Shown: in pieces, positions 2,134-9,858 of the stretch
How positions within the stretch are numbered: position 1 is the first letter of the stretch
How the letters are laid out: each line of letters opens with the position of its first letter
DNA from: Arthrobacter sp. SO5
GTDB lineage: Bacteria > Actinomycetota > Actinomycetes > Actinomycetales > Micrococcaceae
Assembly (NCBI RefSeq): GCF_020532805.1
Contig: NZ_MQTQ01000041.1
Coordinates: forward strand, 82,283-146,282
Direction: 5' to 3'
Length of the DNA stretch: 64,000 nucleotides
The notes under the pieces: model-generated
What the model saw: only the letters and a program-made list of their open reading frames with translations
Databases searched by the model: none
Told to the model about the DNA's origin: nothing
Made by a program: the position numbers and the translations under genes

Positions 2134-3156
2134 TCAGAGCTCGTTTGCAAGGTATTCGAGGGCTAGGGCTCCCCGCTGCTGGGCGCCAGCCCTGTCGAAG
2201 TGACCAGCTGCCGCGAGCAAGTGCTGCTCCGCCGCTGCCGAGTCACCAATGGCTTTTTGCGCCCGACCTAGAAGGAGGCATGCTTCCCCCAATGTCTGGG
2301 GCGGCAGCCCGTCAGTGTCGCAGCAGACTTCTTCCAGGATCTCAACCGCAGCCGTCCAGTCGCCTGCCAGATAATTCCAATGACCGCGGTTCAACTTCTG
2401 CAACAGCATGCTTTCTTCGCTTCCGCCGATGACATCTGTCGCAAGCTCTGCTCGTTCGATGCAGCGAAGCGTCGCCGCATCGGCAACTTCAGCCGCCAGC
2501 CGCATGGCAGCCGAGGCGTTGTTGAATTTGGCCCAGACATGAAGATTTCTTGCTGGCGAAAAGGTAGTCGCGGCCAGCTCATGGTATTGGAGCCCGTCGG
2601 CTACTCTGCCACTAAGGAATGCTGAATTGCCTATCGCCCAGTAGGCCTTACCCAAGAGCTGATCGTCCACTTCTGCTGATATCACGTCGGCGAGGATGAG
2701 ACTTTCCGCCCAAGCGTCGTCCACTTTGCCGCTTTCGCCCAAGGCCGCGACCAAAGCAAGCCGGGCAGTCACATTGATCTCAATATCGACTTCATCGGCG
2801 ACCAGCTCTGCGGCTTCCCTGGCTTCGTCGGCCGCCCTTTCAAGAAGGCCGGCCCCCTGCCACGCCTTGGACAACATAATTCTGACGCGTGCGTGGAGCT
2901 GACCGCCGCCGACGGGTGGCGCGCTGAGTAGTAGAGATGCAACAAAAGCACACTGCTCGAACTCGCCGGCGGCGAGCAAACATTCGGCTTGGAAGAAGGT
3001 CATATTCCACCAAGAGTCGGGGTCGCCTTCGGCCACGGCTATTTCCGCCGCACTGCGCGCGCTTCCGGCAGCATGGCCGAAGTCGTGATTGGTCCACTGT
3101 TCCCGCGCGAGTAGCTCTGCTGCGACATACTGTGGCGAAACGGAATTTTGTTGCAT
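2134..3156 (-). CDS. Stand-alone TPR-repeat protein, possible peptide-responsive regulator
   Basis: A 340-residue soluble protein that is helical throughout, with repeated helix-turn-helix hairpins of TPR type (ALAEYL-, CLLLGRAQKAIGD-, GDWTAAVEILEE-, AYWAIGNSAFLSGRVADGLQYHELA-like units). No DNA-binding domain, membrane segment or enzyme motif is visible; it starts directly with the helical repeats at MQQNSVSPQYVAAELLARE. Such an all-TPR protein resembles the receptor portion of Rap/RRNPP-type peptide sensors. It is divergent, across 211 bp, from a gene for a secreted repeat peptide (3368-3592), which suggests a ligand-receptor pair; this is inference. Codon use and base composition look less GC-rich than the neighbours, hinting at transfer. 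A terminator-like hairpin lies in its leader (3202-3234). Confidence 0.75.
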   Translation of the reverse strand: MQQNSVSPQYVAAELLAREQWTNHDFGHAAGSARSAAEIAVAEGDPDSWWNMTFFQAECLLAAGEFEQCAFVASLLLSAPPVGGGQLHARVRIMLSKAWQGAGLLERAADEAREAAELVADEVDIEINVTARLALVAALGESGKVDDAWAESLILADVISAEVDDQLLGKAYWAIGNSAFLSGRVADGLQYHELAATTFSPARNLHVWAKFNNASAAMRLAAEVADAATLRCIERAELATDVIGGSEESMLLQKLNRGHWNYLAGDWTAAVEILEEVCCDTDGLPPQTLGEACLLLGRAQKAIGDSAAAEQHLLAAAGHFDRAGAQQRGALALEYLANEL

Positions 3157-3201
3157 GTGCTAATTATCCGTTGCGGCGGGACCGGAAACGTACAAGACAT
3201 T

Positions 3202-3234
3202 CAAAAATGCCCCGCGCAGTATTTGCGCAGGGGC
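3202..3234 (-). terminator. Terminator-like hairpin in the leader of the TPR gene
   Basis: Read on the minus strand, GCCCC-T-GCGCA pairs with TGCGC-GGGGC (one bulged base) around a five-base loop and is followed by ATTTTTG. This has intrinsic-terminator form but sits about 45 bases before the ATG of the TPR gene it would precede. It could be an attenuator of that gene or the end of a short minus-strand RNA started near 3300. Confidence 0.55.
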
Positions 3235-3281
3235 TTCGCAGGAATCCTGCCATAACATGTAGATTTTCGCCGCCCCGCAAA

Positions 3282-3361
3282 TTGTTACATCACGGCGTGT
3301 CGATTGTCCCTATACTGAACTCGCACCACTCAAGTAACAACAGTCACTTACGTATCAGGAG
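3282..3361 (+). promoter_or_regulatory. Candidate promoter and ribosome-binding site of the repeat-peptide gene
   Basis: TATACT at 3311-3316 is a good -10 hexamer; a matching -35 at 17 bp is not obvious, so an activator may be needed. On the opposite strand TATAGG overlaps the same bases with TTACTT 17 bp upstream, giving overlapping divergent promoters. AGGAG at 3357-3361 lies six bases before the ATG at 3368. A perfect 13-bp palindrome GCAGGAATCCTGC lies nearby at 3238-3250. Confidence 0.4.
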
Positions 3362-3367
3362 CACTCC

Positions 3368-3592
3368 ATGAAGAAGTCCATCGCGATCCTCCTTGCCGCC
3401 GGTGCGCTGGCTGCTGCGGGTGTCTCCGCAACGGCCGCGATCTCGGCAACCGGCGACAATTCAGAGCAGACTTCGGTCTCAGCTCCGGGCTGGTGGCCGG
3501 ATCTCAAGCCCAGCGCAGCCCCGGGCTGGTGGCCGGATCTCAAGCCCAGCGCAGCCCCGGGCTGGTGGCCGGACGCCAAGCCAAGCGTCTAA
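3368..3592 (+). CDS. Secreted small protein with three 12-residue APGWWPDLKPSA repeats; candidate peptide-signal precursor
   Basis: A 74-residue protein. Residues 1-27 (MKKSIAILLAAGALAAAGVSATAA...) form a classic Sec signal peptide with a likely cleavage after Ala near 24-27. A short linker TGDNSEQTSVS follows, then three tandem 12-residue units: APGWWPDLKPSA, the same again, and APGWWPDAKPSV at the C-terminus. The DNA repeat period is 36 bp and the first two copies are nearly identical. The start has a good AGGAG site. The layout (signal peptide, spacer, tandem identical short peptides) is that of multicopy pheromone or peptide precursors such as yeast alpha-factor. With a divergent TPR gene next door, an export-processing-sensing circuit is plausible but unproven. 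Alternatives are a wall-bound or carbohydrate-binding Trp-rich peptide or a bacteriocin-like product. Confidence 0.8.
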   Translation: MKKSIAILLAAGALAAAGVSATAAISATGDNSEQTSVSAPGWWPDLKPSAAPGWWPDLKPSAAPGWWPDAKPSV

Positions 3593-3701: not shown

Positions 3702-5222
3702 TCAGCGGACGCTGATAAGCCGCTCGATCTCGCTGGCCTGCACGGGCCGGCTGAAGTAGTAGCCCTGGCCGCTCGCGCAGCCAAGCCGGGTCAGTTCGGC
3801 CGCCTGCTCCGCCGTCTCGATACCTTCGGCAACAGCCTTGAGCCCGCACGCGTGGATGAGGTGCAGCACGGCCTCGACAAAGTTGCTCTGCTCCACATCT
3901 GTGCCCAGCCCGTCAATCAGGCTCTTGTCGATTTTGACCACGTTGACCGGCAGTTTCCGCAGATAGCTGATGGACGAGTAGCCGGTGCCGAAGTCGTCAA
4001 TTTCAAGCTGTACACCCAGTCGGCGCAGCCCGCTCAGGGAGTATTGGTCCACGTCCCCTCCGTTGACGGCCATGGACTCAGTCAGCTCGACAATGAGGTT
4101 TGCCGCGTCCACGCCGGTCTCCCGCAGGATGTCGCGGACATGTTCGATCAGGTCCAGGTTCTGCAGTTCAGTTGTTGAGACGTTGACCCGGACGTTGAAG
4201 CTGCTGTCCACGTTCAGCCTCAGCTGCCAGTCGCGAAGTTGGCGCACCGCGTTGCGCAGCACCCAGTGGCCCAGGTCCAAAATCATGCCGGTTTCCTCGG
4301 CAAGCGGAATGAACGAGTCCGGCATCAGGAGTCCGCGCTCCGGGTGGTTCCACCGCACCAGCGCTTCGACGCCTTCAATGATGCCGGTCGCGAGCTCAAC
4401 CACCGGCTGGTAGTGCAGGGTGAGCTGGTCCTGGCGGATGGCTTCACGCATTTCCGTCACCATGGCACTCTGCAACCGCCGGGCATACAGCAGTGCGGGT
4501 TCGAACACCTTGATACTGCTGTGCGGCTGTGCCTTGGCGGCATACATTGCCGTGTCCGCCTCCATCACCAGTTCGTCGGCGGACTGGCCAGCTTCCGCGA
4601 CGCGCAGGCCGATGCTGGTGCCGCACGTAATCCTCAGATCCCCGATTTCCAGGCTCTCGCCGAGCGCCTTGAGTATCCTGTTGGCCACCCGCCGGGCCCG
4701 GACGAGATTGGACTTGGGCAGCATGATCGCGAATTCGTCGCCGCCGAGGCGCGCGACGGTATCTGTTTCACGGACGGCGTCCTGCAGCCTTCGGGCGATC
4801 AGCCGGAGGACGTCGTCGCCTGCGCTGTGGCCCAGGGTGTCGTTGATGCCCTTAAAGGAATCGAGGTCGAGGATCAGCAGGGCCGGGGGCATTTCACCCC
4901 GGGCCGTCTCCGCGAGGGCGTGACTAAGCACCGAATTGAGCGCGGTCCGGTTGGCAAGCTGAGTCAGCGGATCTGTCAGCGCCATCCGCTCGAGCTCCAC
5001 CTGGGCCTCGCGCAGCATGGCCGTGCGGCTCTCGACGCGTTCCTCGAGCTCCTGGTAGATGGTCTGCAGATCGTCTGCCATCAGGTTGATGCCGGCGATG
5101 ACGGCGGCGACGTCGTCCCTCTTGCCGGAGGGGGGAATCCTGGTGGTCAGGTCGCCGCCTGCGATACGGACGATGCCCTCGACGAGCGCGTGAAGCCTGG
5201 GGTCCGGAGGATCAGTGGTCAC
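3702..5222 (-). CDS. GGDEF-EAL protein (c-di-GMP synthesis/hydrolysis)
   Basis: A 506-residue cytoplasmic protein with no membrane segment. Residues about 10-60 look HAMP-like, followed by a coiled coil (QELEERVESRTAMLREAQ) that leads into a GGDEF domain. The active site GGDEF (160-164) is intact, and RETD (151-154) five residues upstream matches the RxxD inhibitory site. The EAL domain carries EAL (286-288) and DDFGTGYSS (409-417), so both activities look possible. It is the last gene of an overlapping operon: its GTG start lies inside the end of the STAS-like gene (11-bp overlap), which is itself behind a membrane glycosyltransferase. The context suggests it sets local c-di-GMP for polysaccharide export. 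Which activity dominates in vivo cannot be told. Confidence 0.9.
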   Translation of the reverse strand: MTTDPPDPRLHALVEGIVRIAGGDLTTRIPPSGKRDDVAAVIAGINLMADDLQTIYQELEERVESRTAMLREAQVELERMALTDPLTQLANRTALNSVLSHALAETARGEMPPALLILDLDSFKGINDTLGHSAGDDVLRLIARRLQDAVRETDTVARLGGDEFAIMLPKSNLVRARRVANRILKALGESLEIGDLRITCGTSIGLRVAEAGQSADELVMEADTAMYAAKAQPHSSIKVFEPALLYARRLQSAMVTEMREAIRQDQLTLHYQPVVELATGIIEGVEALVRWNHPERGLLMPDSFIPLAEETGMILDLGHWVLRNAVRQLRDWQLRLNVDSSFNVRVNVSTTELQNLDLIEHVRDILRETGVDAANLIVELTESMAVNGGDVDQYSLSGLRRLGVQLEIDDFGTGYSSISYLRKLPVNVVKIDKSLIDGLGTDVEQSNFVEAVLHLIHACGLKAVAEGIETAEQAAELTRLGCASGQGYYFSRPVQASEIERLISVR

Positions 5223-5739
5223 TTGCGTAACGTCCTAACCACTCGACGGCGTCCGCCGCGGAGGTGAAGAATTCGGCCGGAATAGTCTCGGATCTGGACC
5301 GCAGGAGGTAGTGGGCGAAGACCCTGTCCACCGGACTTTCACCCACCAGGGCAAACGCGGAGGCCGCGATCGAGGTGGCAAAGACATGCCGGGCTTCGGC
5401 GCTGACGCCGACAACGCCGGTGATGACGAGCAGTGCAGGCATCCGGCGCCCGCCGGCCAGTGCCCGGACCGCTGCACCGGCGATCCGCGCCTCAGGACCC
5501 TGGATCTCCACGTTGGCCGGCAGCGTCACTTCGATGATCCCGCCGTCGAGCATCCGGACACCGACCGGCAGTGCCGCCGGAACGGCCGCAGCCACAACGG
5601 CAGCTGTCACAACGGCAGCGGTCACCGCCACGGACGGCACAACGCCGGCCCCGGGCACAACGCCGGCCCCGGGCACGACGCCGGCCCCAGGTCCGTCGGG
5701 GGTTCGCCCGTCGGGCCAGGCCAGGGCCTCAGTCGTCAT
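5212..5739 (-). CDS. STAS/DUF7793-like protein with PGAGVV repeats
   Basis: A 175-residue protein. The N-terminus (about 15-60) is low complexity, with three PGAGVV units encoded by an 18-bp DNA repeat followed by an alanine/valine-rich run. Residues about 65-175 resemble the STAS/SpoIIAA-like DUF7793 fold (GGIIEVTLPANVEIQGPEARIAGAA..., then ALLVITGVVGVSAEARHVFAT). Such domains usually bind partners or small ligands rather than catalyse. It overlaps the upstream glycosyltransferase by ATGA and the downstream GGDEF-EAL gene by 11 bp, so the three are translationally coupled and probably form one regulatory unit. The family assignment is moderate. Confidence 0.65.
   Translation of the reverse strand: MTTEALAWPDGRTPDGPGAGVVPGAGVVPGAGVVPSVAVTAAVVTAAVVAAAVPAALPVGVRMLDGGIIEVTLPANVEIQGPEARIAGAAVRALAGGRRMPALLVITGVVGVSAEARHVFATSIAASAFALVGESPVDRVFAHYLLRSRSETIPAEFFTSAADAVEWLGRYASDH
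5636..5689. repeat. Three 18-bp tandem repeats inside the STAS-like gene
   Basis: Units at 5636-5653, 5654-5671 and 5672-5689; the first two are identical (GGCACAACGCCGGCCCCG) and the third differs at two bases. They encode the PGAGVV repeats on the minus strand. In-frame length change is possible by slippage. Confidence 0.8.
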
Positions 5740-8081
5740 CGGACGGCAATCCGACGGCGGCGGTCGGCAGAGCCGCGGAGATCACGGTTCAGCCGGCGGT
5801 CGCCATGATAGAGGATTGTTTCCCAGTCGATTTCCTCCGCTGTCTTGGGGATCACGGGGCTCTCCTTGACTTTCGCGGGCCGCGGGCTGACGTAGAGCCA
5901 GTTGACCATGCCAAGGAACGCATCCACTGCGGAGTTGAAGACTCCGATGTACGCGCGGATCGCGCCGGCGGCGAGGATCGCGTTCAGTGAGGCGAAGGCC
6001 ACGTTGCCCCAGTTTCCCAACTGGGCGTCGCGCCAGACAGTCAGCAGGGAGAACGCCACGATGGCGTAGGGCGTCAGCACGTACAGCGCCGGCGCGGACG
6101 TGCGGTTCTTGACCTTCGGAGTGCGGGCAAACGGGATCTTGTCGCCGGTGACGGCCTGCTGCAGTGACTTGAGTACACCGGCCAGGTTCACGGGAAGCAG
6201 GACAAGGTTGAAGCCGTAGATCCGAAGGATGTCGCTGAAGCGGTGCCCGCAGTCGCGAAGGTCGCTTCCCATGGCCAGGAAGTAGGGCAGCGCGGCGAGG
6301 AAAACGATCGGGCTCAGCAGCCGGCTGTCGTACGGGTAGGCCAAAAGGAAGATCAGGCCGAAGCTCGCCCAGGCGATGGATGCCATGTAGTTCACCCGCA
6401 GCAGCACCTCGCGGAACAGGATGGCCCGGCGTTCGGAGCGGTGCTGGCGGAGCTGGGTCCACAGCTTGGGCAAGATCAGCAGTCCGCCGTTGGCCCAGCG
6501 CCTTCGTTGGACCACGAGGGAGCCGAAGTCCGGCGGGGTGGCGCTGTAGCTGAGCCGTTCCGGGTAGTTGACCAGGGTCCAGCCGTGCTGGCCGAGGTCG
6601 ATGCTGGATTCGGTGTCCTCGATGACCGTGCGGTCCTGGATGTAGGTCCGGATCTCGAAGCCGCCGCTGCTCTCGACCTCGACAATGTCCTCCAGCGAAC
6701 GTTTCCGGATGACCGCGTTGGCGCCGACCCAGAACGTGGCACCGTAGTACGTCATGCCCTGGTGCAGGATGTGCTGAATGTCCGTCGTGGCCCCGGCGAT
6801 GCGTTCGATCCGCGTCGGTGCGCCGCGGAAAGAGGAGTACGGCGTCTGGGTCACGGCGACGCGCTCGTTGCCGGCCGATTCCAGGAAGTACACCAAACGC
6901 AGGCAGTAGTCGCGCAGCAGCAGCGAGTCGGCGTCAAGCGTCAGCAGATAAGTGGTGTCCGGAGCTTCCAGGACCGGGCCACGGCCTTCAAGTTCGACGC
7001 CGGGCGGCAGCTTCCGCAGGACCACACCGTCGGCTGTGGTTTCCTCTTTCCAGGAATGCCCCATGAGGGAGATGTAGGCGTTGAGGTTCATCGCTTTGTT
7101 GGCCTCGTGCGAGAGGCTCGCGTACTTCTTGCGCTCGAAGGTCTCCGTGGACACGTTGAAGATCCAGGTTAGCCGCAGGTACAGCTCCTCCAGGCGGGAC
7201 CGCGGCGGGCACGCCTGCTGCACGGACGCCGCATTCAGTCCCACGAGCACCAGTCGCAGCTCGCGGGCCAGTCCCATGAGCACCAGGTCCACGAAGAACT
7301 CATCCACGTGGTCCTCGACCTGCTCGGCGGCCGCCATCGCCTCCAGCCAGCCGGCTGCGGCCTCGTACTCTTCAATGAGGAGGCCCAGTTCGGCGGCGTC
7401 ACTGCGGACACCGGCCGTGGCACGGCGCCGGAATTCCGCCACAGCGGCATTGCAGCGTTTCGCCGGTGCGTCCATGGCCGCGGCGATCTCCGCCGTCAGG
7501 GCCCGGGTTTTGTCCAGCCGGGCGAGGGTTGCGGGGTCCGCAGGGTACGGCGGATCATCCAGCAGGAGAACGACTTTGAGATCAGGGAATTCCTGCAGGG
7601 CAGCCGACCACAACGTGGCACGCACAACCTGCGGTTCCTCGGCATAGGAGGGCACCAGGACGGTGATGCCGTCGGCGTAGTCGGCGAAGTGGCGATCCAG
7701 TTCTCCGCGGGGAACCCGCTGGTGGTCCCGGAATCGATAAAGCGCCCCTTGCCTAGCCATGAGGTACATGAGTGCCGAAAATGTCAGGAATGTTACGACG
7801 ACGAGATAGGAAACCGTCTCGAATTGAAACCGAAAACCCGCATTCGGGTTATCCGCCAGTTCCTTCAGGATTGTCGAAACAACGTAGCTGATCCAGGCAA
7901 GTACCGTCGTGAGAATACCCAGCCGGCCAAGGATGATCTTGCGCCGCGAAGGACGCGGATGGACGATCGACAGCGGCTCGGACCGCCGCTCAGCCCCCCA
8001 TTGACGGCGCCGTGCGGCACCTTTTTGATCGGCTGTGACGATTTCTGCATCAAGGCGCGGCAAGACAAGCTGATCAGACAT
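5736..8081 (-). CDS. Membrane family-2 glycosyltransferase (cellulose-synthase-like)
   Basis: A 781-residue processive-type glycosyltransferase. Two N-terminal membrane helices (about 50-72 and 90-110) precede a GT-A domain with VPSY (143-146), first aspartates DD (175-176), DAD (383-385), the catalytic ED in VIEDTES (487-491) and QRRRW (525-529) for acceptor binding; further membrane helices lie at about 560-720. It should polymerise and extrude a beta-linked polysaccharide across the membrane. Unusually, about 200 residues, mostly helical and charged, separate the first Asp pair from the DxD, far more than in BcsA. No PilZ domain is visible, so c-di-GMP control, if any, would come through the coupled STAS-like and GGDEF-EAL genes. 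Start is ATG with GGGGACTA upstream. Confidence 0.85.
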   Translation of the reverse strand: MSDQLVLPRLDAEIVTADQKGAARRRQWGAERRSEPLSIVHPRPSRRKIILGRLGILTTVLAWISYVVSTILKELADNPNAGFRFQFETVSYLVVVTFLTFSALMYLMARQGALYRFRDHQRVPRGELDRHFADYADGITVLVPSYAEEPQVVRATLWSAALQEFPDLKVVLLLDDPPYPADPATLARLDKTRALTAEIAAAMDAPAKRCNAAVAEFRRRATAGVRSDAAELGLLIEEYEAAAGWLEAMAAAEQVEDHVDEFFVDLVLMGLARELRLVLVGLNAASVQQACPPRSRLEELYLRLTWIFNVSTETFERKKYASLSHEANKAMNLNAYISLMGHSWKEETTADGVVLRKLPPGVELEGRGPVLEAPDTTYLLTLDADSLLLRDYCLRLVYFLESAGNERVAVTQTPYSSFRGAPTRIERIAGATTDIQHILHQGMTYYGATFWVGANAVIRKRSLEDIVEVESSGGFEIRTYIQDRTVIEDTESSIDLGQHGWTLVNYPERLSYSATPPDFGSLVVQRRRWANGGLLILPKLWTQLRQHRSERRAILFREVLLRVNYMASIAWASFGLIFLLAYPYDSRLLSPIVFLAALPYFLAMGSDLRDCGHRFSDILRIYGFNLVLLPVNLAGVLKSLQQAVTGDKIPFARTPKVKNRTSAPALYVLTPYAIVAFSLLTVWRDAQLGNWGNVAFASLNAILAAGAIRAYIGVFNSAVDAFLGMVNWLYVSPRPAKVKESPVIPKTAEEIDWETILYHGDRRLNRDLRGSADRRRRIAVR

Positions 8082-8283: not shown

Positions 8284-9858
8284 GTGTCCGAAAGATTCCC
8301 AGGCCGCAAGTTATCGCTGGCCCGGCTGGGCGTACTCACGAGCATCGCGATCGCCGCCACAATCGGCGCAGTGGGTGCCTGGGGCAATTTCCAAGACGTC
8401 CGGGCGGCCGGGGCCATCCCGTCCATTTTCTCCGGCTACGTAGATGTCACGGCGACTCCGCGGTACGCCTTCGAGGCACCGGTCTCCAAGGAAGCCCAGA
8501 ATGTCCTGCTGTCCTTCATTGTGGCGGACGGCAAAGACGGCTGCGCGCCGAGCTGGGGCGCCGCGTACTCCCTGGACGGTGCCGGCTCGGCTCTTGACCT
8601 GGACCGGCGGGTGGCCCGGCTCCAGCAGCTGGGCGGGGCCGTGTCGGTCTCCTTCGGCGGACTGATCAACAGCGAATTGGCCACCAGCTGCACGGACCCG
8701 GTCCGGCTCGAGGCTGCCTACCGCGCCGTCGTCGACCGCTACAACGTCAGCAGCATCGATCTCGACATTGAGGGTGAAGCACTCGGGGACGTCGCTTCCC
8801 TGGACAGGCGCTCGGCGGCGATCGCGGCGCTGCAGCTGGACCGCCGCCGCGACGGCAAGGACCTGAGCGTCTGGCTGACGCTTCCGGCCGACCCGAACGG
8901 GATGACGACGGCGGGCACCGAGGCGGTACGCCGGATGATCGCGGCCGGCACCGATCTCGCGGGAGTCAACGTCATGACCATGGACTACGGCGGAAGCAAG
9001 CTGCCGGGCCGCTCGATGTATGAGAACGCCGTCTCGGCAGCCGAGGCCACCCACGGGCAGCTCACCACCTTGTACAAGGCGGCGGGCAGCGAGCTGGGCA
9101 GCGGGACGGTATGGCGCAAGGTTGGCCTGACCCCGATGATCGGCCAGAACGACATCGCGGGCGAAATTTTCACCCTCCAGGACGCGCAGGAGCTCAGCAG
9201 CTATGCGAGCACCAAGGGAGTGGGCCGGTTGTCCATGTGGTCCCTCAACCGCGACCGCACCTGCAGCCCGAACTACCCCGACGTCAAGCAGGTCTCTGAC
9301 GGCTGCAGCGGCGTGGAGCAGGGGTCACCGAGCTTCGCGACGATTCTCGGCGCCGGCGTCAGCGCCCCGTCCGCCGATCCGGCCGCGTCTGCGCAGCCGA
9401 CCTCGGCTCCGGCCGTTACGGACGATCCGTCCACCAGCCCGTTCCCGGTATGGAGCGAAGCCGCCGCGTACACGGCCGGCGAGCGGATCGTCTGGCACTC
9501 CAACGTTTACGAGGCCAAGTGGTGGACCCGCGCTGACACCCCGGATGATCCGGTACTCCAGGGCGCGGCAACGCCATGGCGCATCATCGGCCCCGTACTG
9601 CCCGGCGACAGGCCGACCACCCAGCTCACCGCACCAGCCGGTACCGCGCCGCAGTGGCAGCCGGCAACCGTCTACCGCAAGGGTGACCGCGTGCTGTTCG
9701 AGGGCCGCGTCTTCGAAGCCAAGTGGTGGACCCAGACAGACAGCCCGGAAGCGGCGCTCCAGGGCTCGCCGGACTCGCCCTGGTCCAAGCTGCGGGACGA
9801 GGAGCTGCTCAAGATCATCGCGACGGCGTCCGCGTCCCCGACGGCTACGCCCAAGTAA
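8284..9858 (+). CDS. Secreted GH18-type glycoside hydrolase with two C-terminal carbohydrate-binding modules
   Basis: A 524-residue exported protein starting at GTG 8284 behind TAAGGGGG. Residues 1-42 form a signal anchor or signal peptide (SLARLGVLTSIAIAATIGAVGAW). The catalytic domain (about 45-350) carries the GH18 motif DLDIE (159-163), with E163 as presumed acid/base, and ends in the typical MWSLNRD strand. After a Ser/Pro/Ala linker come two CBM5/12-like modules (about 388-440 and 458-515), each with YxxGxRVxxxxxxYEAKWWT. Known relatives hydrolyse chitin or other GlcNAc polymers. The divergent placement beside a polysaccharide synthase suggests trimming or release of the product, which would then contain GlcNAc; that link is inference. 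Confidence 0.85.
   Translation: MSERFPGRKLSLARLGVLTSIAIAATIGAVGAWGNFQDVRAAGAIPSIFSGYVDVTATPRYAFEAPVSKEAQNVLLSFIVADGKDGCAPSWGAAYSLDGAGSALDLDRRVARLQQLGGAVSVSFGGLINSELATSCTDPVRLEAAYRAVVDRYNVSSIDLDIEGEALGDVASLDRRSAAIAALQLDRRRDGKDLSVWLTLPADPNGMTTAGTEAVRRMIAAGTDLAGVNVMTMDYGGSKLPGRSMYENAVSAAEATHGQLTTLYKAAGSELGSGTVWRKVGLTPMIGQNDIAGEIFTLQDAQELSSYASTKGVGRLSMWSLNRDRTCSPNYPDVKQVSDGCSGVEQGSPSFATILGAGVSAPSADPAASAQPTSAPAVTDDPSTSPFPVWSEAAAYTAGERIVWHSNVYEAKWWTRADTPDDPVLQGAATPWRIIGPVLPGDRPTTQLTAPAGTAPQWQPATVYRKGDRVLFEGRVFEAKWWTQTDSPEAALQGSPDSPWSKLRDEELLKIIATASASPTATPK

Follow-up and report, generated by a model that had tools for sequence, protein, structure and literature searches.

The window, a 64,000-nucleotide stretch of DNA from the soil actinobacterium Arthrobacter sp. 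SO5, carries a gene for a secreted-looking repeat peptide precursor that is divergent from a gene for a TPR protein without an HTH, and the recurrence of this pair in related genomes exceeds chance. The pair belongs to a peptide-receptor family that is real, widespread and probably undescribed. We consider it likely that the family carries out RRNPP-like intracellular peptide signalling in Actinomycetota, with a Rap-like branch acting on c-di-GMP; the pairing is well supported, and the c-di-GMP output is the best current guess.

The divergent pair and its recurrence

An earlier note on this DNA had described a precursor lying divergent from a TPR protein gene across 211 bp. Both ORFs and their layout were confirmed, and the pair comprises the following features:

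2134-3156, minus strand: receptor of 340 aa without an HTH, with eight predicted TPRs (ORF, structure model and profile)
3157-3367, no strand: divergent intergenic region of 211 bp (sequence)
3368-3592, plus strand: precursor of 74 aa, with a signal sequence judged by eye and three peptide units (ORF and repeat finder)
3485-3502, plus strand: PGWWPD copy 1, predicted mature hexapeptide (boundaries from copy concordance)
3521-3538, plus strand: PGWWPD copy 2, predicted mature hexapeptide (boundaries from copy concordance)
3557-3574, plus strand: PGWWPD copy 3, predicted mature hexapeptide (boundaries from copy concordance)

The window precursor protein, MKKSIAILLAAGALAAAGVSATAAISATGDNSEQTSVSAPGWWPDLKPSAAPGWWPDLKPSAAPGWWPDAKPSV (ORF 3368-3592, plus strand), runs from a lysine start through a hydrophobic stretch and an alanine-rich region to three 12-aa APGWWPDxKPSx units, and its N-terminus reads by eye as a signal sequence. 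A 36-bp array was found at 3480-3587 using TRF (3.0 copies, 93% matches). The protein matched no Pfam family, and its one NCBIfam match was far below the cut-off; when two other precursors were compared with NCBIfam, one was without a match and the other had sub-cut-off matches only.

With the precursor as query and E 0.01 as limit, 16 of 59 genomes matched. A few of these matches are plainly chance, for example those in G040 and G051, and the real ones include a second kind of precursor with GNWPDPM units. Receptor homologues were present at E 0.001 in 37 of 37 same-genus genomes and in none of 22 genomes of other genera. All 55 receptors of these 37 genomes have beside them a divergent xWP precursor with a signal-like start. 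The pair is directly divergent in 78 of 80 loci from Arthrobacter, Pseudarthrobacter and Paenarthrobacter, a set made up of the best 80 of 230 loci that overlaps the 37-genome set. About 1.6 kb separates the receptor and precursor genes at L116, and at L153 the precursor sits between two receptor genes. A profile search of the family Micrococcaceae found receptors in 88 of 197 genomes, representing 17 of 32 genera, and 60 further loci of other genera were taken from the longer match list.

The precursors were also counted with a motif criterion, a divergent ORF no longer than 200 aa, containing [GNDV][NWDYLSIEGT]WP and lying no more than 700 nt upstream of the receptor. Such an ORF accompanies 184 of 221 receptors in a non-redundant set with a minimum length of 280 residues (22 short fragments of 243 were left out), while the control regions gave 6 matches on the other strand of the upstream region and 10 and 18 in the downstream region; five loci among the 18 contain real precursors of tandem arrangements. 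The idea that a repeat ORF came to lie beside a TPR gene by chance is refuted by these counts, 184 against 6, 10 and 18, together with the 55 of 55 pairs, and we give it a negligible probability. To recognise signal sequences in the precursors, we relied on inspection and on a hydrophobic-run pattern. Of the 37 receptors failing the strict criterion, inspection still shows a WP precursor for 13, elsewhere or with a different context, and short precursors without a signal sequence, such as those ending RVNWPF or RVGNWPD, occur among the failures. By eye no WP precursor was seen for 24 of the 221 receptors, 22 of them HTH types.

Several loci differ in form. Very short WP-ending peptides without a signal sequence accompany HTH-type receptors of other genera at L260, L263 and L185, and resemble SHP/ComS in this respect. 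Two adjoining receptor-precursor pairs with different signals occur at both L225 (e.g. DDWPH and GNWPG) and L228. Wider profile searches gave a match in 15 of 248 genomes of the order and in 7 of 296 genomes of the class. At L176, from another family of the order, an HTH-TPR protein has a divergent small secreted-looking ORF ending DTWPA, and this is possibly a distant outlier of the system; two other HTH-TPR proteins of that family had no WP-ending peptide.

Receptor fold, HTH paralogues and intergenic regions

Because Pfam gives just one sub-threshold TPR in the window receptor (TPR_7, E 0.046), the label 'TPR' rests on predicted structure. An AlphaFold2 model built from 48 aligned sequences (pLDDT 92.6, pTM 0.86) contains 17 helices, which can be read with high confidence as eight TPR pairs plus a cap in a predicted superhelix; eight units fall within the 5-9 TPR units given for RRNPP(A) receptors. 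No HTH was found in the window receptor using Pfam or an HTH profile built here. The best fold matches of the model are to LGN (Z 26.8, rmsd 3.3, 322 aligned) and not to Rap; NprR (Z 20.5, rmsd 5.2, 311 aligned), RapI (Z 20.1, rmsd 4.5, 271 aligned) and RapH (Z 20.1, rmsd 4.8, 289 aligned) also matched, as did other TPR proteins at Z 20-23. LGN, NprR, RapI and RapH are TPR proteins with a peptide groove, and a fold of the modelled kind, being common to many TPR proteins, is not diagnostic. The PDB sequences matched by receptor profiles, at limits of E 1 and E 0.01, were generic TPR, PPR and HTH chains; the names Rap, NprR, PlcR, PrgX, Rgg and AimR did not occur among them.

Across the receptors, the helices of lowest variability by entropy are B6, A5 and A6. 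A helices 5-6 carry the conserved residues W173, N177, W208, N212 and R219, and A7 carries R257 and W260, the inner face being assigned by the usual TPR layout and not from coordinates. The earlier note had staked its reading on a conserved groove. This stands to the extent that the inner helices A5 and A6 are among the least variable, but B6, the most conserved single helix, is an outer one, so that conservation extends beyond the groove.

The 55 same-genus receptors fall into three groups, A (the window type, 10 receptors), C (8 receptors, 44-46% identical) and B (37 receptors, 38-41% identical), with one group B receptor in every same-genus genome; the SO5 genome also has its group B copy, in L075. 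Group B proteins are about 420 aa long and consist of an XRE HTH followed by the TPR domain, the HTH scoring above the Pfam cut-offs (HTH_31, 44.4 bits with a cut-off of 27; HTH_3, 41.6 with a cut-off of 23). The profile built here detected an HTH in 103 of the 221 receptors, and 118 are HTH-less. A tree built quickly from 115 receptors places the HTH-less proteins on one side of a branch (SH-aLRT 79; none of 500 shuffles was as low), which suggests that the HTH-less state reflects a single change. Receptors from another family have the HTH, so that loss is more likely than gain. The receptor set therefore holds both an N-terminal HTH and a derived absence of the kind seen in Rap, as RRNPP(A) receptors do, and the description of the window receptor as Rap-like is borne out by its place in the HTH-less group. 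The HTH paralogues, which share the TPR domain and the kind of precursor, strengthen the reading of precursor and receptor as a signalling pair. That reading was the core claim made from the sequence, and it is supported by the recurrence (55/55, and 184/221 against the controls), the conserved inner helices and these paralogues.

Three further features were marked in the intergenic region of the window locus, where a consensus promoter scan found nothing:

3163-3168, minus strand: GATAAT just upstream of the receptor ATG, likely the -10 of a putatively leaderless transcript (sequence)
3311-3316, plus strand: TATACT, putative -10 element for the precursor gene (kept across the group A alignment)
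3357-3361, plus strand: AGGAG, ribosome-binding site of the precursor (sequence)

In 17 of the 18 group A and C intergenic regions of the first set, and in 0 of 37 of group B, ATAAT stands no more than 18 nt from the receptor ATG, a placement that would fit leaderless receptor transcripts in groups A and C. TTGACA-N(27-36)-TGTCAA, enclosing a ATTTTACAAT block, is common to all 37 group B intergenic regions; exact ACATTTTACAATGT is present in 19 of the 37 and CATTTTACAAT in 26. This element may plausibly be an operator for group B autoregulation. In the SO5 genome the operator was found within one mismatch at one site, the group B locus, and therefore no regulon was found. An operator shared across groups was considered and rejected, as CATTTTACAAT is present in 0 of 18 group A and C intergenic regions.

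Other non-coding elements were seen in the window. A terminator-like hairpin lies on the minus strand at 3210-3232, between the divergent genes, and short, partly palindromic intergenic elements, GGACATAGTGCCACTATG-like and GGACATGTCC-like, occur at 181-198, 221-294, 1909-1958 and 2036-2056 and exceed shuffles.

Predicted mature peptides and orphan precursors

At least two copies of the unit are present in 121 of 189 distinct precursors, and there are up to eight. Peptide copies also stand in tandem in the yeast alpha-factor precursor, which differs from the present system in having a membrane receptor and other processing. The multi-copy precursors were divided into 59 of NWPDP type, 36 of GWWP type and 26 others, and positions were numbered with the W of WP as 0. 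At -3, copies within a precursor agree in 98% (NWPDP), 95% (GWWP) and 100% (others) of copy pairs, compared with 44, 27 and 43% between precursors; at -4 the agreement is 52, 84 and 70% within and 42, 56 and 17% between. On the other side of the core, agreement at +2 is 95% within GWWP precursors and 100% within the others (65 and 26% between), dropping to 39 and 68% at +3. In the NWPDP class agreement at +4 is 92% within and 66% between, it drops to 55% at +5, and the last copy stops the protein exactly at +4 in 51 of the 59 precursors. Since agreement within precursors ends at -3 and at +2 or +4, the units are delimited as hexapeptides xGxWPx and octapeptides xGNWPDPx, which suggests that the mature peptide of the window is PGWWPD, with 6 residues, and that the IGNWPDPM type has 8. 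Duplication alone would not obviously stop copy agreement at such edges. The mature signal of about 12 residues that had been proposed is thus replaced by a predicted hexapeptide, the unit conserved by copy concordance.

As the repeats look secreted and are rich in Trp and Pro, the precursor could be read as an extracellular effector (an antimicrobial, surface or metal-binding repeat protein) that the TPR protein merely regulates or protects. We regard this as very improbable, given that single-copy precursors keep one xGxWPx unit at or near the C-terminus and that the HTH-TPR paralogues have a precursor of their own.

Five orphan precursors with neither a receptor neighbour nor a signal sequence by eye were found among the 37 same-genus genomes (G020, G028, G002, G029 and G036), and they repeat the octapeptide core with other flanks. 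All units of the G020, G028, G002 and G036 orphans begin with I, like the group B signal of the genome concerned, and two of three units of the G029 orphan begin with T, like its own signal, with just one being the exact octapeptide. The match in first residue is modest evidence, because most copies (104 of 170) have I at that position anyway. The middle unit of the G020 orphan, IGWWPDLM, contains IGWWPD, the group C signal of G020. The expectation that a repeat of the PGWWPD type would always adjoin a TPR gene holds for the most part, with 184 of 221 receptors paired against the 6, 10 and 18 of the controls, and fails for these five orphans. The orphan multi-copy loci are L039 (5968-6153, minus strand), L300, L301, L302 and L303. 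Those at L039, L300 and L302 come after an ORF whose product ends DPGSSPD, the L300 copy of which matched no Pfam family.

Copy number and orphans bear on another reading, in which the precursor reports secretion or envelope protease activity and its fragments are re-imported by the same cell. Such self-monitoring would show the same anatomy. A shared, diversifying signal is nevertheless the better fit to as many as eight copies that are uniform inside a precursor and vary between species, and a shared signal also fits better with orphan precursors that repeat the core; we hold self-monitoring to be quite unlikely.

The GGDEF-EAL neighbourhood and known systems

The gene order in the window is receptor, precursor, GGDEF-EAL, DUF7793, GT2 and GH18, the last four being:

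3702-5222, minus strand: HAMP-GGDEF-EAL protein of 506 aa, proposed partner of the receptor (Pfam, motifs and linkage)
5212-5739, minus strand: DUF7793 protein of 175 aa, linked with GGDEF-EAL (Pfam and synteny)
5736-8081, minus strand: GT2 glycosyltransferase of 781 aa, perhaps an exopolysaccharide synthase, linked in part of the loci (Pfam and synteny)
8284-9858, plus strand: GH18/CBM5_12 protein of 524 aa, linked in the same subset as GT2 (Pfam and synteny)

The 506-aa protein matches the Pfam GGDEF (E 7.3e-43) and EAL (E 2.7e-74) families, and GGDEF, EALVRW and DDFGTGYSS are readable in it; with both active-site motif sets present, it is predicted to be a c-di-GMP enzyme. A GGDEF-EAL gene lies within 1.2 kb of the receptor in 98 of 118 HTH-less loci and in 0 of 103 HTH loci, a distance chosen because the flanks are unequal (median shorter flank 4.7 kb for HTH-less and 1.3 kb for HTH receptors). 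At any distance within the sequence taken around each receptor, the gene is found in 115 of 118 HTH-less loci, ten of these only in the 19-kb regions, which were taken for HTH-less loci (12) and not for HTH receptors. L229, which is HTH-less by profile and is without GGDEF-EAL, encodes 474 aa and may be an HTH receptor that the profile missed; at L111 a GGDEF-EAL piece is present at a contig end, and L255, without GGDEF-EAL, has a stop inside the match. Among the Arthrobacter, Pseudarthrobacter and Paenarthrobacter loci with 6-kb flanks, every group A locus (36) and every group C locus (40) contains GGDEF-EAL, and none of the 12 group B loci examined does. Its place varies: group A has it on the far side of the precursor, group C on the downstream side of the receptor, and other genera 4-5 kb downstream. 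Of 95 GGDEF ORFs longer than 400 aa in the loci, 11 were without the EAL pattern used. Homologues of the window GT2 and GH18 genes are present in 10 of the 12 loci with 19-kb regions and DUF7793 in 5, and GT2 is present in 6 of the 37 same-genus genomes.

Among the 19 same-genus genomes whose only receptor is of group B, 17 likewise encode GGDEF-EAL homologues (E 1e-100; 58-59% identical where fully listed), and the five such loci examined contained neither receptor nor precursor. The enzyme therefore does not depend on the receptor, and our confidence in the signalling statement as a whole is slightly lowered accordingly; an exclusive co-occurrence of GGDEF-EAL with the HTH-less receptor was rejected. 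Nor does the linkage represent many independent events, because the HTH-less receptors are one side of a branch.

The flanking genes of the window locus are kept in 34-35 of 36 close relatives. The receptor gene is lower in GC (59.8%) than the window (67.3%), as had been noticed from the sequence. A transferable module had also been proposed, and this was rejected on the conserved synteny and on the absence of matches for the window receptor in plasmids, for the HTH paralogue in phages, and for receptor or precursor in PHROGs. The same ligand-receptor pair might instead act on another regulator, such as a response regulator or, as a heteromer, the HTH paralogue, with GGDEF-EAL merely a stable neighbour. 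This would agree with the presence of GGDEF-EAL homologues without a receptor in other same-genus genomes, with the clustering of HTH-less receptors on the tree and with the retention of further neighbours, too, in close relatives. We think it unlikely, since the GGDEF-EAL linkage survives the change in layout, while an IMPase and a 217-aa membrane protein are each found in only 1 of 40 group C loci.

For the preferred reading, with the neighbouring enzyme as target, we infer a route of export, processing, import, binding and output, direction of effect included. The precursor would leave the cell through Sec and be cleaved to hexapeptides PGWWPD, three from each molecule; these would be imported through an oligopeptide permease (the SO5 genome encodes five SBP_bac_5 uptake-type binding proteins) and would bind the groove of the adjacent cytoplasmic TPR superhelix. 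The HTH-less receptor would work in the manner of Rap, through contact with another protein, which is most likely the HAMP-GGDEF-EAL enzyme encoded next to it; the peptide level would then set c-di-GMP and, where the GT2 and GH18 genes exist, exopolysaccharide as well.

The closest comparison is with Rap-Phr of Bacillus, which likewise has an HTH-less TPR protein, an adjoining precursor gene, a short mature peptide (here predicted) and an action by protein contact (here presumed). The present system differs in its occurrence in Actinomycetota, its divergent genes, its Trp-Pro core and its GGDEF-EAL neighbour, and no sequence similarity was found. Rap proteins themselves carry an N-terminal 3-helix bundle and act on Spo0F or ComA. 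PlcR-PapR, NprR-NprX and Rgg-SHP resemble group B in the XRE HTH with TPRs, the adjoining precursor, the C-terminal octapeptide and an inverted repeat in the shared promoter region, whereas group B precursors are usually multi-copy (35/37) and belong to another phylum. As in RRNPP(A) systems there is an adjoining gene for a secreted propeptide, secretion being predicted by eye and by the hydrophobic-run pattern. The mature peptide of RRNPP(A) systems is short and mostly comes from the C-terminal end of its precursor; copy concordance here predicts 6 or 8 residues. In its working the system appears RRNPP-like; it is not counted among the RRNPP systems, since the profile searches of PDB sequences brought up no homology to known members.

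In the literature cited here, tandem Phr precursors also carry several pheromone copies each, but belong to phage-borne Rap systems of Bacillus (PMC11343458); loss of the HTH in Rap is treated as derived, RRNPPA is described and precursors have up to six copies (PMC9765709); the RRNPP survey covered Firmicutes and, for Actinomycetota, gives small enzymatic signals as typical (PMC10075063); the signals of Actinomycetota are given as cyclic or modified peptides and butyrolactones, the evidence for Arthrobacter being LuxR-type domains (PMC4748050); and LuxR solos occur in Arthrobacter (PMC9659744). Intracellular TPR receptors in Actinomycetota are not described in the available parts of PMC10075063 or PMC4748050. 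Within open-licence PubMed Central, which leaves most subscription papers and preprints outside, no description of this peptide-receptor system was found, nor were the peptide strings or RRNPP together with Arthrobacter.

The most detailed form of our proposal, which we see as about evenly balanced, is a Micrococcaceae-wide pheromone family without a detected RRNPP sequence link, in which a hexa- or octapeptide with a Trp-Pro core would be sensed by an ancestral self-regulating HTH-TPR receptor, a derived HTH-less branch would be wired directly to a c-di-GMP cyclase/phosphodiesterase and exopolysaccharide genes, and orphan precursors without a signal sequence would, in some species, repeat the species' own signals, in one case both.

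A family of receptors and pheromones present in roughly half the Micrococcaceae genera sampled would bring this kind of communication to light in Actinomycetota, and exact candidate peptides are available for synthesis. The HTH-less receptors would add to Rap a further example of HTH-TPR receptors that have apparently lost the HTH, and through a Rap-like receptor tied to GGDEF-EAL a peptide signal would feed directly into c-di-GMP.
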